Shown here: positions 51,984 to 59,493 of the stretch, in pieces
How the letters are laid out: the number at the start of each line of letters is the position of its first letter
Position numbering within the stretch: position 1 is the first letter of the stretch
Source: Malus domestica
Lineage: Eukaryota > Streptophyta > Magnoliopsida > Rosales > Rosaceae
Direction of reading: 5' to 3'
Assembly (NCBI RefSeq): GCF_042453785.1
Contig: NC_091674.1
Coordinates: forward strand, 24,506,001-24,570,000
DNA length: 64,000 bases
Notes under the pieces: generated by a model
Told to the model about the DNA's origin: nothing
The model's database searches: none
The model's input: the letters and a program-made list of their open reading frames with translations, nothing else
Translations under genes and position numbers: made by a program

Positions 51984-54491
51984 TCAAATTTGGGCAGCGT
52001 GTCCCGGGAACCATGGCAGTCCAGGTTGAAGACACTGTTTTGTTTCTGGAATTGGGACAATAGGTCCCAGAAAGATGCGCCACAGATCTAGTATGATTGT
52101 CACCAGCATTGCGGCGCCCAGAGCATCAATGGCCGCTCTAGGCAAGTCCCATGGATCGCCAGGCTTCTCATCGATCCTGTTAACATGAACAAACACGTGT
52201 TATGAGCATTCTAAGCGATCCCATATATTTCTGATCAATAACTTGAACCAAAAGGCTGTCTGGTTCTTACCTAAGAAACATGGGAAAGCTAACGATGAAG
52301 TATATCGCATAAAACAAGGAACCAACTGTATACATAGACGCCCGGTCCACAAATTGATAGTAAGGGAACTGCACATGGTGAAGGCAAACATCATTGTAAC
52401 AGCATCTGCTCACATAGCTATCAACGAATCATTAAACTACCAGCATTTCAAAGAATGGAATGCGTAATTATGTATGAGCTTCATTATATCACAAAGGTGT
52501 CACCAACCAACAGAGATAGCGGATAAGGCATGCGGGTCAAATGGAATGCCAAGTATAAGGAAGACTAGAGGAACATGAAGAGACATATATATGAACTACA
52601 GCATTCTACCTTATCTAACCTAATATATTGATAGGCCACCTTTAGAAAGTAGTCAAAATTTACGAGTAGTTAGATGAAAGATATCATAAATGTGTTGCAA
52701 CATACGTTAGAAATAGCTACAGTCTCCAGGTATGCGATGAAATAAGAAAAAGCCAAAATCCATGCAGCCTCAGCAACCCATTGAACTTGTTCTGGCCATT
52801 CAGCAGTAAAATGGCGTAGTCTGCGAAGTGTTATATTTGATGTGACATGATAAAATAGGAAGCAAACATGTGTGAGAAGGAAGGTAGTGTGGGGTACCTG
52901 CACAGATAAAACGTGATTAGAAAAGATAGGTAGTATATTGCAGAGCGTTTCAAGATTTCTAGCTTACATTGTTCATCTTCCATGATGGGAAAGTATACGA
53001 AGCTCCCAAAACGGTGAAGAAATAGTGGGTCCAAAAGTAATTCCCAACATAGCTAAAAATTATTATCCACACGCTGGCCTGTTACAGAAATCAAAGTTTG
53101 GTTCAGGCTAAGCATAAAGTTATAATACAGATGAGAATGTCATATTAAAGAAAGTGCTAGTAGATCAATTAGTGCAGTAAAGCAGTGAAAAGAAAGGAAC
53201 CTTCAAATGACAAGAACAAGCCTCACAATGGGAATATTCGTTTTATCACATGCTTTGCAACTCGATAAACAAATGATGAGTGTTTTTTCCAAGATGTTTG
53301 ATATGATGCATATAAGCACATTATACAAAGTACCAAGAAGAGAAATATCACTGCATTCCAAATAAACGATACGTTCAGAATAACTGGCCGCAAAAGTCAT
53401 GGATAAATACAAATCACCAAAAGAAAAAAGCTGATAATCCAAATTATAAGTTTCCTTGTTCGAAGACTTTGTCCTAATTATGATATATAATGAATTTTAC
53501 CCAGGAAAACACTTGCCTTGACCCAATAACGATCCTTCCAAGCCAAGCTGCTATCCGCCTGCAACCATACTCGCAAAAAATTAAACAAAAAAAGAAAAGG
53601 TTAGAACATAAACAAACTCTGGCTAATACAATCCAAGCTTCCACTCTACTGCACTAAAAGCTTGATCATACATCGGTTCTATCAGCAAATATTTACTCTC
53701 TCTCTCTCGTATATTGGATTAAAGTATTACTAACTTCAAGATAGTAAGAAGTTTGTACTACATGGAATATAATTCGAGGGTGGAAGTAAAAGGGTAGTGG
53801 AATTGTAATTTTAACCATCATTCGACAATTGGAAACGAAAATTTTAAACGTTATTCCGGACACCCCATTTAAATTTAAGATGAAAATTGTCTAAAAAAAT
53901 GAAATTTAAGCTGAACTTAGTAACATTCAAGTAATACCTTCCCGACGAAGAGCATTGGCAACAAAAACGCAGGGACTGCGGAAACCAATCCAATTAGCAA
54001 ATACTCCAATTCTGTAAAGCTCTGCCGCATACACAGATCAAAAATCCAATTACGAAAACTAATTAGCAAAAGAAAATTGACCAATTTCACCCAAAAAAAT
54101 CAACACTTTTTCACTACTACGGACTACAAATACATTTCATCAAATAAAGTTTCCATCTTTTCTATTATTTTCATTCATTTTCTTTTGTTATTTTCTCAGT
54201 AACCAAACAGATGATACGGAAATCGAACCTCGTAGAGCTTGAAGGGCACGACGATTCCCAAGCAGAGAGTGAGCCAGAAAGGAGTGTAGAGAAGGAAGAA
54301 GAGCTCCCCCCATCTCTTGCTTGGATTCGGAGCCAACCATAAACTCGAATAACAATCCGGTTCTTCTTTACCTGCACGCATTGCCAAACACGGGCTTATA
54401 AAAAACCCGGATTATAATTCCGATACAGCAGTTCAAAACCCTAATCAATTGAAGTATTTGAATTCGAGTAGTAGCGAACTTTACCGCCCAT
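51984..54491 (-). CDS. CPI1: Cycloeucalenol cycloisomerase
   Basis: Opens the 9,19-cyclopropane ring of cycloeucalenol to give obtusifoliol, a committed step of plant sterol synthesis, in the endoplasmic reticulum. Eight exons (minus): 54491-54485, 54371-54229, 54021-53938, 53558-53517, 53078-52968, 52897-52706, 52368-52271 and 52176-51984. They join in frame to 289 aa, about the family length. Highly characteristic blocks are present: WLAPNPSKRWGELFF near residue 14, SYVGNYFWTHYFF, GASYTFPSWKMNN, NFPYYQFVDRASM, and RIDEKPGDPWDL then DLWRIFLGPIVPIP near the end. Several hydrophobic segments fit a polytopic membrane enzyme. Exon 1 is only seven bases (ATG GGC G), which explains why no long upstream frame exists. 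Intron 4 starts with GC (AAG|GCAAGT). A mitochondrial rRNA fragment lies about 340 bp upstream. Confidence 0.95.
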
Positions 54492-54829
54492 TTTGGTATT
54501 CGGATCTTTAAAACCGGTGGTATTTATTCGGATCGGGGCGGAACGCTGAGGCGGTGGGCGGTGCTTTGAGTGTTTCACCGTCTGAGTGACTAGTGAGAGT
54601 CTCCGTCGTGATTGCGCCTAGATATTGCTGCTGTTCTGTACTTGTTGTCACTTGTCGTATTGTGCTGAGGTGGCCGATTGTTTGCTAAAAAGGGTCTGTT
54701 GAGTTAGGTATTTACTAATGTACCAGTGGCGTTGAAGAAAATAATCTAATTTGACACTATAACTAGGTCATCAAAATTTGGTGCCAAAATAAATGTAGTA
54801 GTTTTATTTTTTAAAATAAGTGAGTGCAG

Positions 54830-55152
54830 CCAGCCCGGCGCTGCTATTGGCATAACAACCGGTACACCATAGGTTAGCCCAACCCAGTCCTCTCGTACTA
54901 GGGTTAGCTCCTCGTAGTTTTCCCTTTAACACCAACGGTAGATAGAAACCGAACTGTCTCACGACGTTCTAAACCCAACTCACGTACCACTTGAATCGGC
55001 GAACAACCGAACCCTTGGGACCTTCTTCAACCCCAGGATGTGATGAGTCGACATCGAGGTGCCAAACGACTCCGTCGATAAGAGCTCTTGGGAGTCATCA
55101 GCCTGTTATCCTCGGCGTACCTTTGATCCGTCGAGCGAGAGCCCTTCCACAC
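54830..55152 (-). pseudogene. rrn26: NUMT: fragment of mitochondrial 26S rRNA
   Basis: About 320 bp matches the 3' half of large-subunit rRNA in reverse orientation. Universally conserved segments are readable on the plus strand, such as 'ggtagatagaaaccgaact', 'tcacgacgttctaaaccca' and 'gacatcgaggtgccaaac'. Details such as 'gaatcggcgaacaaccgaac' and 'gactccgtcgataagagctc' follow the plant mitochondrial form more than the chloroplast 23S or nuclear 25S form, judged from memory. It is a partial copy with scattered changes, so it is a nuclear transfer and not a working rRNA gene. Confidence 0.82.
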
Positions 55153-55280
55153 GTAAATGAGAGGTCTTAGGCTCAAATCTGGTATATAGCGAATTCGATA
55201 CCAAATTAGATTGTTCATTGTATGGCTTAGCCGAACTTCTTTCTCCCCTTAATGTAAAATATATCGTTGTACTATAAAAA
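55153..55280 (+). mobile_element. 5'-truncated SINE tail
   Basis: A box-B-like 'gaggtcttaggctcaaatct' is followed by 'gcgaattcgataccaaattag', 'ttgttcattgtatggcttag' and 'aatgtaaaatatatcgttg', the same 3' body as the SINE at 11688-11864, and an A-rich tail. The 5' half is missing exactly where the mitochondrial fragment ends. Confidence 0.7.
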
Positions 55281-55640
55281 AAATAAAAAATAAAACAAAA
55301 CAAAACAAGTGAATGTAAGTTGTTTGGAGTTGAGTAGGCTAAATAATGACGTACAACCTTAACAACACCACGTTTTGCCAAAATATATCTTTAAGTATGG
55401 CTGGTTCAGTATGAGATTTTGAACTGAAATGAGATCCTAAATTAAAATATATCGTTGTACTATAAAAAAATAAAATAATAAAACAAAACAAATCAAGTGA
55501 ATGTAAGTTGTTTGGAGTTGAGTAGGCTAAATAAAGACGTACAACCTTAACAACACCACGTTTTGCCAAAATATATCTCTAAGTAGGGCTAGTTCGATAT
55601 GACATTTTGAACCGAAATGAGATCCTGAATCCTGAACCAA
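55257..55640. repeat. Tandem duplication, about 187-bp unit
   Basis: Two direct copies start with 'aaaatatatcgttgtactat' at 55257 and 55444. They share 'gtgaatgtaagttgtttgga' and 'aacaacaccacgttttgcca' in the same order and are roughly 90% identical by eye. The duplicated unit begins within the SINE tail, so the duplication followed the SINE insertion. Confidence 0.9.
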
Positions 55641-55928
55641 ATATTTTTGGGGATTTTTCGTTATGGGTTTGGGATTTTTTCGTTTTGATTTGGGAATTTC
55701 GGAAATATTTTTAAGTCCTACCTCTGAGATATGTTAATGTGGACCAATCGTTCTTGATTTCATTTCAATTTTCTTCTCAAAGTTTACGAGAGTCCAAGTT
55801 CGAATTCCTATCTCAATTACTATAGATTCCTCACAGATATGTACGTTAGTCTATGTTAATTGGATGATGTATCATTTACTTATGTTTTCAGAAGGTGAAT
55901 TTTCTAGTTAATTTGTTCGTTAAATTTA

Positions 55929-57096
55929 GGGTAAATTATATAGTACCCTCTCAGGTTTGAGGTCTATTATAACTCTATACAACATTTTTAAAACATTTCA
56001 CTTTCATACTGCACGTACTATTTTATTTTAATATAATACATTCGTTAGATTTTTCATCAATTGTTCCGTTAAGAGCTGACCTGGCTACCATATTTGTGCC
56101 ACGTGACAATTTTTTTTTTCTATGAATTTAAAAATAATTAATTAAAAAAAGTATTTAAAAAATAAAAACCCTAAAACCCATGTCTTCCCCATCCCCAATA
56201 ACCCCATCTCCTCATATACTCCATCCCCATCTGCTCTGTGCTGTATGCAACCAGAATCTTCCGTCGCCGCCTCTATCCCCATCTGGTAATCTGTCTCCAA
56301 CAAGTCCATGCCGCACCTGTCTCTCGCCTGGAACGGGTAGCCCCGGTCGGAGTCGACGAAGAAGGCATTGCTGGAGACGCGGACGCAGGGCGAGCCGGGT
56401 TCTGAGACGGAAATCGAGTTCGATTTGTCCCCATTCAAGCTAACATCATTCAGAAGTAGTCCGGTGGGGAAAAATTTGGATATTTTAGTTTTGCTGGGTT
56501 TTTTAGGATTTGAAATTGAATGGGTAGGCTTTGCATATTATTTCGAAAGATAATAGAGTGTGTTTGGTTAGAGGGAAATTGAGAGAAAATGGGTAGGAAA
56601 TGTTTGGATTTCTTTGTGTTCTGTTGAGTGTGGGAAAATTTGGAACTTTTTCAGTTTTTGGCTTCTGGGATGGAGATTGAAGGTTGTCAAGGTCTGAGTG
56701 CTGGGAGTGGGAGAGGAGGTTGTCGACGTAATCGACCAAGCTGCGATGCGAGTAGTGAGATCTCGGGTTGTTGTGGTGGTAATTGGAAGTGTAGTTAGTA
56801 GACAGGTGCGGCGTTGAGGACCTCATTTTCCGTCGGGTTGTGGTGGCGGTGGTATTGGGGACGAAGAAGGCCAAAATCCTTCACCTCAGATCCTCTTTTT
56901 TATTTTTAAAGTTTTTAATTATTAAAAAATAGTTTTTTAAATAACTAATCCTTTTTTTATTTACTTTTGAATTTTCTAACGGATGTATAAAATTGAAATA
57001 AAATAATAAGTAAATGTTTGAAATTGAAATGTTTTAAATATGTTGTATGAGGTTGTAATAGACCTTAAACTTGATGGGGTACTATTTAATTTACCC
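55929..57096. mobile_element. Mutator-like foldback element, Pack-MULE candidate
   Basis: This 1168-bp element is flanked by a perfect 9-bp duplication TTAAATTTA (55920-55928 and 57097-57105). The ends GGGTAAATTATATAGTACCC and, inverted, GGGTAAATTAAATAGTACCC begin long inverted arms of about 150-250 bp. The centre (about 56180-56880) is markedly less AT-rich. It carries open, protein-like frames on the minus strand, one with SVSEPGSPCVRVSSNAFF (56142-56438) and another ending near 56503-56874. No transposase is present. The 9-bp duplication, long arms and gene-like filling fit a Mutator-like element that has captured host sequence. The source gene is not recognised. Confidence 0.8.
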
Positions 57097-57116
57097 TTAA
57101 ATTTACTAACGGAAAA

Positions 57117-59493
57117 ATGCCCAAAACTTGGCGTGGAGATGATAAATCTTTGAGCTGCATGCTGCTTTCGGATGATGGTTCTCTTCTTGTTTCTGGTTCA
57201 GATGATGGGATGATATGCGTGTGGAACTTGATTAGGTAACAACTAAACTTTGTATTTTGCCCTCGTCACTTTTTAGATGCTAGAAAAACTTTAGGATAAT
57301 AAGAATTTAACAAATGCTATTTTTCAATCATTTGGATGGCAGTTTGCTGGATGTAGAAAATGTTGAAAGCTTTCCGTCACCATTACATTATTCAACGGAG
57401 CATAAATCCGCTATAGCTGGCTTGTTAACTACATCAGGCATCTCAAGTCCAGTGTTAATATCAAGCTCACTTGATGGCTCGTGCAAGGTCCCGAAACTCG
57501 TTTTAGTTCTTGCTCCAGAAAATTGTATCTTTTGATTGATTATCTTCTTACTGAAAGCAAATTATTCATTTAATTTATGTATCTGTTGTTAGGTTTGGGA
57601 TTTAGTCTTGGGAAACCTCATGCATACTCTAGTTTATCCACCAGGGATAACTGCAGTTGCTCTTCACCCAAAGAAGCAGTTAATTTTCTCCGGAAGTATA
57701 GACGGAAGAATTTTTGTGAACAAACTCGAAATCGGACTGGTAGAGGATTATTTGGTTGGTGCTGAAGATCAATCACCTGTGCTAAAAGGACACAAGTAAT
57801 GTCATTGGTCTTTCAAGTTAATTTCGTTAGATCGTTGGAGATAAACGTCTCCTTTTCTCAACAAAATCTTTTCTGTTATAGTTCATTTTTGTTTCACCAT
57901 CTTATTAATGTGGTTGTAAGTTGCAACTAGATTCCCTATTTTCTCTCGTTTCGAATCTGAGAAAAAAAAAATTAAACACTACTAGATTATAACAAAATAA
58001 GTGCTATTCATTTTTCCATATTATAGTTTGCTTACATACCTATAATTCCTGCAGCGGATCTGTTACTGCATTAACCTTCAGCGAATCTGGTTTGATATCC
58101 GCATCTGAGGACTGCACCATCTGCATTTGGGATATCAGCAGTTGTGAAATCATCCGAAGATTCAACCATCAGAAAGGTAACCCTTGCTTATAGTCTTCCT
58201 TTCTGTATTTTTGTTTTCAGTTTTCTTTCTTGAGAGGGTCGAGTCTGCTAACTTTCATTTTTCGTGGTATATACTATAGGCATGCATAAATGTCATTGTT
58301 CACGAGTCTACACGCCAGTTGCATTGATGCAGTAACCAAGGCTCTCATGCATGTATTGGAATCTACAAAGAGTCTCATGCATATTGGAACCATCAAATAT
58401 ATTTAATTGAGTTTTAGAGCAACACAAATAGTTAAGTAGTCATTTAAGAACATTTTAAATATTTTTGGGGTAGAGCAAAAGTCCAATTCGGACTAGAGTT
58501 TCATGGTGTTGTATTCCTTATAAATATATGTACTAAACCCTTGAGAAAGGAGATTGGAATGAATTAAAATATATTTTGCTTTGTGCAATTGAAGTGAGTG
58601 ATTTCTCCTTCTCAAATCAAGCATTTGGCTTGATCGTGTGAGCGAATCCACGATTAGCGACGTGAGCGAGCTCCGTTGCCCCTGGTTGAGTGATTCCCAG
58701 GTTATCTATCCCTCGTCTTTTCGAGACCCTTGGTCTTTCCTGCATCATGCATAATCCTATTATATGCATTCACATTGTTTTAAAATACAAATTACACAAT
58801 GTAATGTTTTATATGATCAAGATTGTTTGCTCTCTTCTATTTTAACAGGGCCTGTAACTAATCTGGCAGTGATTCCACAGTCCTCGTTGCTTCCTGTGTC
58901 AAACCATCGTAAAAAGTCTAATGCATTTGGTGTTTCTGTGCTCGGTAAGCATCCACAACCTGCCAACTCATCCAACGAGAAGATCACTCTTTTTTCACCA
59001 TGCCACTCCCGGAAACCAAATCTCCATCAATTTCCAGACCACTGATTTCGCTGCCCAACAAATACAAAACATGGAGGTCTCACTTTTTCTCGCAAACATT
59101 TGCACGTAAACGAGTTTGCTTGTAATGTTTTGGGCTAAATGTCTAAGTTCTGACCAAGGTTCATTTTAATTTTTTTTTGTTGTGAAATTTGGGCAGAAAG
59201 ATTCAATTGCCGCAATGGAGATGAAATTGGAAACATGTCTAGAGGGCCGAATGCGGGCGACAAAAATGGTGAAGCATATGAATGTGATGGAAATGAATAG
59301 GCATTTGCAATCGCCTTTGCTAGGTCTAGCGAAACTGATTCATCTTCAACGAGAAAGAGCAAGACCGATTCATCTTCGACGAGAAAGAGCAAGACCATCA
59401 TGCTTGAAAATCCCCCACTGCAAGCGGGGGAGGAGCAGCCATAAATCCTCAACTCATCTTTGTTCCCATGTGTCTACTTATTTTGCCAATTAA
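57117..59493 (+). pseudogene. RID3-like WD40 gene, 5'-truncated and frameshifted
   Basis: WD40 protein of the ROOT INITIATION DEFECTIVE 3 / Ipi3 type, whose intact relatives act in ribosome maturation and root initiation. Readable exons: up to 57235, 57343-57487, 57593-57795, 58055-58176, 58849-59076 and 59197-59493. Repeat blades are clear (LLVSGSDDGMICVWNL; VLISSSLDGSCK then VWDLVLGN; LISASEDCTICIWDIS). The last exon gives KDSIAAMEMKLETCLE, like the conserved C-terminal helix. The N-terminal blades, roughly the first 120-130 residues of the family, are absent upstream. Exon 5 must change frame between its first half (stop at 59043) and its end (QTTDFAAQQIQNME) to reach the last exon. An element with a 9-bp duplication abuts the first remaining exon. 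A short product from 57117 is possible but unlikely to be functional. Confidence 0.75.
58290..58755. mobile_element. Possible small LTR-like insertion in a pseudogene intron
   Basis: The block contains a TATA-like 'tataaatatatg' and 'gcatgcataa' / 'tcatgcataa' motifs at its two edges (58281 and 58745), with TG and CA near the ends. It makes the intron unusually long. The boundaries are weak. Confidence 0.35.

Follow-up and report, generated by a model that had tools for sequence, protein, structure and literature searches.

A probable chimeric Pack-MULE lies at the edge of a 2.6-kb deletion that beheads a WDR18-like gene in apple

The window (the whole stretch of 64,000 nucleotides analysed here, C14:24506001-24570000 of the Malus domestica genome) contains a 1168-bp element that stands directly against the remaining exons of a 5'-truncated WDR18-like gene; both lie on the forward strand, and their parts are collected in Table 1. 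From 57103 the window aligns to C6:27450315 onward at 88%, and further left 53500-54810 aligns to C6:27436446-27437792 at 85%; the C14 window and the C6 regions are therefore homoeologous. The gene is called WDR18-like because the C6 protein matches WDR18 chains in a single stretch (residues 9-310, E 1e-34); other WD40 chains outscore WDR18, but over shorter best stretches. Upstream of exon 3 the C6 gene has a 130-bp intron, exon 2 (...YLWE) and exon 1, and this part of C6 has no match in the window. Displacement of exons 1 and 2 to another place in the genome was ruled out, as C6 alone carries them among the best 40 of 73 candidates scored.

Table 1. Coordinates of the element, its parts and its flanks in the window (TSD, target site duplication; NPC, non-specific phospholipase C).
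Feature	Position	Strand	Remark
Left flank, like C6:27447571-27447704 upstream of the WDR18-like gene	55798..55928	+	74%, 134 columns, E 9e-17
Left TSD, TTAAATTTA	55920-55928	+	C6 counterpart at the empty site: TAAAATTTA
Probable chimeric Pack-MULE, 1168 bp	55929..57096	+	
Left terminal inverted arm, opens GGGTAAATTA	55929..56049	+	
Module A, common to other family members	56170..56309	+	
Captured NPC exon fragment (LNGDKSNSISVSEPGSPCVRVSSNAFFVDSDRGYPFQA), open frame	56324..56440	-	host relatives
Module C, like 5' leader of LRR-protein gene (C7, C2)	56475..56683	-	in nine other elements
Module D, common to other family members	56725..56900	-	
Right terminal inverted arm	56975..57096	-	
Right TSD, TTAAATTTA	57097-57105	+	
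Exon 3 of 5'-truncated WDR18-like gene	57103..57235	+	C6 exon starts one base earlier; acceptor gone here
Exon 4 of 5'-truncated WDR18-like gene	57343..57487	+	
Exon 5 of 5'-truncated WDR18-like gene	57593..57795	+	
Exon 6 of 5'-truncated WDR18-like gene	58055..58176	+	

The element starts with GGGTAAATTA, ends with TAATTTACCC and has a perfect 9-bp TTAAATTTA on each side. Both this duplication and the long inverted arms had been noted in an earlier sequence-only reading of the stretch, and both withstand the controls. Perfect 9-bp flanks occur in 6 of 200,000 random 1168-bp intervals of the window and, with all-AT left flanks only, in 2 of 2,021 random intervals. The outer arms (121 and 122 bp) are 83% identical across 122 columns and score 123 bits, above each of 300 random pairs (mean 17, maximum 98.7). 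Inward of the outer arms there are further, shorter complementary stretches; the innermost pairing (56170-56330 against 56790-56905) is no better than shuffles, its local score of 26 being equal to the best of 500. A longer foldback with modules A and D as its inner arms is thus not supported, the score not exceeding that of the shuffles. The GC content is 24-27% in the arms, 62% in the NPC piece, 51% in modules A and D and 35% in module C.

The 651-Mb genome (19 contigs) was searched with the element, which returned at least 132 matches (best 40 of 2,202 candidates scored) on contigs C1 to C17; the copy number of the family is a lower bound because of this scoring. Thirty loci were fetched, of which four remained undelimited; both ends were delimited in 26, and these represent 23 distinct elements, 1.0-1.9 kb long, with the window element among them. 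Perfect 9-bp flanks are seen in 15 of the 23 (one of these being a T-run) and imperfect ones, with 4 to 8 of 9 bases matching, in seven; the remaining element reaches its locus edge and its flanks are outside this count. The result is a dispersed family with common GGGTAAATTACA ends, 9-bp target duplications and differing cargoes, the interiors sorting into groups that have little in common except these ends.

Ten frames out of nine family elements were scanned against Pfam. One at C13:16493096-16494414 contains a ribosomal L12 N-domain (PF16320, 2.4e-9, above the cut-off), its L12-like peptide having no match in the PDB. Another, at C16:17322283-17323683, encodes an aquaporin N-terminus that matches a plant aquaporin chain in the PDB (E 8.6e-19) and MIP in Pfam at 3.2e-4, under the cut-off of that family. 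Four of the other frames, including both from the window element, have weak unrelated matches under the cut-off and four have none. The MULE transposase domain is abundant in the genome (at least 151 matches to PF10551, best 150 of 482 candidates scored), and in this search no element combining these ends with a transposase was found; among the matches listed, the smallest distance from a transposase to a family copy is 37 kb (the two lists were compared by eye).

Two relatives share the module joins of the window element. The sister at C15:45921790-45928362 (loci L037 and L002) shares its modules with the window element and has a TSD of its own, CAAATAATA on both sides; about 5.2 kb of additional DNA split its NPC piece. 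In a C12 element (L004) the NPC module is joined to module C in the order seen here, and the flanks match at 8 of 9 bases. This phospholipase-leader chimera lineage is therefore present at three places (the C14 window, C15 and C12), and the shared joins indicate that the chimera is older than these insertions and moved after capture.

The core of the element is built of modules that differ in their genome distribution. The sequence-only reading had pointed to protein-like frames on the minus strand of the centre; such frames exist, and host relatives support the coding nature of the segment 56324-56440, but neither of the two frames scanned has a Pfam match over the cut-off. The 117-bp NPC fragment has genome relatives at C11:6253362-6253478 (85%), C3:6078182 (79%), C3:10288482 (77%) and C4:15244951 (79%). 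Within the stretches examined the frame is open for 438 codons at C11 and 446 codons at C3:6078182; the C3:10288482 and C4:15244951 loci appear broken. The C11 frame is a phosphoesterase (PF04185 at 5e-100); among solved structures its best match is non-specific phospholipase C4 (PDB NPC4, 2.8e-134), and the fragment falls within this one long uninterrupted frame. The same frame is open in the fragment, with 85% nucleotide and 76% amino acid identity to C11 over 38 residues. Pfam does not recognise the fragment itself, the sole match being to the unrelated ToxB_N under the cut-off (E 0.011-0.015). The family arms have no match at the four NPC loci (L043, L050, L052 and L053) or in the DNA up to about 1.5 kb from them; at L053 a single match of 29 bp is to the inner, AT-rich part of the right side of the element. 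To judge by these alignments, 56324-56440 is a piece of a host NPC exon, and genes of the source type are free of arms. The exact parent is unsure because the fragment is short and 15% diverged. Over about 28 synonymous sites dS and dN are 0.39 and 0.12 for fragment against C11 and 0.34 and 0.07 for C11 against C3, with dS 0.50 for fragment against C3; we make no claim on selection because the stretch is very short.

Nine further members of the family contain module C (L004, L006, L008-L012, L015 and the C15 sister). Beyond the delimited elements, its likeness is to the DNA just ahead of the first ATG in an LRR-protein gene on C7 (L047) and C2 (L036), the LRR reading of these genes having been made by eye; hence the name leader-like. 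Its origin thus looks like an LRR-gene leader, a resemblance that does not fix the true source. At L036 (C2:20236203-20239388) and L047 the module C sequence is tandemly repeated upstream of the LRR-protein gene. For modules A and D the Pfam search of their frames identified no host gene; one read-through frame of the C15 version of module A has no Pfam match, and the module D peptide is present at five places in the genome, the window and the C15 sister among them, none of which is shown to be a host gene.

Pack-MULEs are described in PMC3310237 as non-autonomous MULEs with gene fragments, a TSD of 9-11 bp and terminal inverted repeats (TIRs) of typically 100-500 bp, and in tomato the 1.0-1.2 kb class is the commonest (PMC3310237). 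The window element has a 9-bp TSD, arms of 121 and 122 bp and a fragment from an arm-free host gene; in these features and in its size it resembles the rice, tomato and Arabidopsis Pack-MULEs of that account, as it does in having copies with their own TSDs and varied cargo behind common ends. Since the TSD, TIR, non-autonomous and gene-fragment features are matched, the element is assigned to the Pack-MULEs. It departs from those of PMC3310237, so far as they are described there, in that its arms are just 83% identical and that the genome search returned no autonomous partner. The same-ended family, the 9-bp TSDs, the NPC fragment with arm-free relatives and the varied cargo of other members all bear out the Pack-MULE pattern proposed by the sequence-only reading. 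We hold with high confidence that this is a non-autonomous chimeric Pack-MULE, present in the window where C6 is empty and where upstream DNA and exons 1-2 are gone. Against this assignment count the lack of a same-ended transposase element among the 150 of 482 PF10551 candidates scored, the imperfect flanks of 7 of 23 elements and the T-run among the 15 perfect ones, the modules A and D without an identified host gene, and an NPC fragment that is short, 15% diverged and invisible to Pfam. Long inverted arms would also be expected of a generic foldback or MITE that carries no host cargo, and such an element would suit the module D peptide, which at each of its five places lies beside family arms; the arm-free host relatives of the NPC exon fragment, with their long open frames, make this alternative very improbable.

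Given a Pack-MULE, a MULE transposase encoded elsewhere would have moved the element, and the cargo may have been acquired when template switching occurred in the repair of an ancestral element. Template switching is, with gap-filling and FoSTeST, among the models given for the Pack-TIRs of animals (PMC8277862). The window element resembles Pack-TIRs, as that paper presents them, in its chimeric interior of several sources and in being multicopy after capture; unlike those animal elements it is found in a plant (PMC8277862). It likewise resembles the Pack-TYPE elements of PMC8903248, non-autonomous TIR elements defined by their ends, by a TSD and by coding DNA that they have captured. The main text of PMC8903248 contains none of the words apple, Malus and Rosaceae, and in PMC11197308, on Rosaceae transposons, Pack-MULE occurs in the reference list only. 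In a search of the Pack-MULE and Mutator-like literature, apple included, no listed title or abstract opening names the family, which may still have been published; a search with the TIR letters gave, among the matches listed, titles on unrelated mammalian subjects.

The site of insertion is defined by the left flank, which aligns to DNA upstream of the C6 WDR18-like gene. The alignment stops exactly at the end of the TSD, where C6 reads TAAAATTTA, and none of 200 random 131-bp window pieces reaches its score against the same 9.9-kb C6 stretch. Farther left there is a colinear 50-bp match (window 55506-55555 to C6:27447431-27447480); 55318-55367, in the second copy of a tandem repeat, matches the same C6 place, and a 74-bp match at 55647-55720 is non-colinear and part of a dispersed repeat. 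The tandem repeat is a 188-bp duplication (55247-55630, two copies, 92%), and the 50 bp that align to DNA upstream of the C6 WD40 gene belong to it. Between the C6-homologous part that ends at 54810 and the left flank lies, on the minus strand, a 160-bp piece of bacterial-type large-subunit rRNA (54951-55110, Rfam RF02541), probably organelle DNA inserted in the nucleus. A hybrid formed by recombination between two insertions was ruled out by the identical 9-bp flanks and by the alignment of the left flank to one C6 site.

The C6 site is empty: a single TAAAATTTA, identical to TTAAATTTA at 8 of 9 bases, is present, and as the C6 ATG is at 27448879 it lies 1,174 bp upstream of that ATG. The sequence-only reading had suggested a search for the empty site in related genomes; read on the C6 homoeolog, the single target leaves the insertion unrefuted but moves its point. 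The same reading allowed that the insertion might have hit one of the WD40 gene's coding exons, and on paper the frame it relied on exists, since excising the element and one TSD joins the left flank in frame to TNGKMPKTW. Leftward, however, the joined frame meets a stop after about 20 codons, and this leftward stretch has its counterpart in DNA upstream of the C6 gene; for both reasons its continuity across the empty site, as far as the alignment tells, is accidental. The left flank corresponds to neither exon 2 nor intron 2: with the TSD it aligns 1.17 kb upstream of the C6 ATG, and the 130-bp intron and exon 2 that precede exon 3 in C6 are both absent from the window. An insertion into a coding exon is hardly credible on these grounds; exon 3 is adjacent through a loss of 2.6 kb. 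Removing an insert and reading on is a test that can mislead where a deletion adjoins the insertion.

The segment missing from C14 is C6:27447705-27450314 (2,610 bp), the last base of which is the first of exon 3; it comprises upstream DNA, exons 1-2 and introns 1-2, and only because it is missing does exon 3 adjoin the element. The deletion abuts the outer edge of the right TSD rather than the end of the element, and its border falls within a 3-bp TTA microhomology: 57103-57105 (TTA) close the TSD and at the same time open the homology to C6 exon 3, and TTA is found on both C6 deletion edges. A deletion from the element end with loss of the TSD was ruled out, as only 2 of the 6 window bases left of TTA match C6. 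The chimeric Pack-MULE is a known type of element; what calls for an explanation is the match between TSD and deletion edge.

Three orders of events would fit the sequence. The 2.6-kb deletion may have come first, the element later landing on its scar; this yields the same final sequence and agrees with the C6 homology stopping at the TSD on the left and starting within the last three bases of the TSD on the right, yet the 9-bp target must then end 0-3 bp from the scar by chance, and we consider this order rather unlikely. The element may instead have come first, followed by an unrelated deletion that happened to end at the TSD. The TTA on both sides in C6 is what microhomology joining would leave, but such a deletion is expected to start anywhere in the flank, and this second order is doubtful. 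Third, the deletion may be linked to the insertion itself or to what the element did later. Since the other two orders need a coincidence of a few bp, the linked event is favoured; we give it about an even chance. The deletion could still coincide with the TSD edge by chance.

Linked insertion and deletion could be connected as follows. Integration of the element and filling of the 9-bp gap would leave a nick at the outer border of the right TSD; this nick would become a double-strand break, the promoter side would be resected or lost, and the broken end would be rejoined at exon 3 via TTA. Adjacent deletions of Mu are named in PMC2774946, and flanking deletions are a recognised outcome there. 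The window locus resembles maize Mu in its 9-bp TSD and in its site upstream of a gene, Mu preferring the 5' ends of genes and upstream DNA according to the same source (PMC2774946). As in the Mu type of adjacent deletion, flanking DNA is missing outward, here from the right TSD border. In the window the full TSD is kept and the deletion runs from its outer edge, which may set the locus apart from Mu adjacent deletions.

A gene-capturing transposon thus sits exactly on the breakpoint that beheads one duplicate, and the other duplicate (dS 0.18, exons 3-6) keeps the empty site. If insertion and deletion are linked, they would show one concrete way in which Mutator-like elements drive the loss of genes once a genome has doubled; if both were one event, one homoeolog would have been beheaded by the element.

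The truncated gene has lost the acceptor of exon 3 but retains the donor of that exon, the splice sites of exons 4-6 and open frames. Over exons 3-6 the window and C6 differ with dS 0.183 and dN/dS 0.23, pairwise values that are uninformative on the time since truncation. At 57117-57119 exon 3 has an in-frame ATG where C6 reads TTG. A speculative extension, to which we attach little probability, is that insertion and deletion were one event and that a WD40 protein truncated at its N terminus, beginning at ATG 57117, may now be expressed from a promoter in an arm of the element. The truncated gene also contains a 423-bp TG...CA element (58325-58747) with TGCAT on either side and up to 97% full-length identity to other places in the genome, which looks like a solo LTR or a TRIM.
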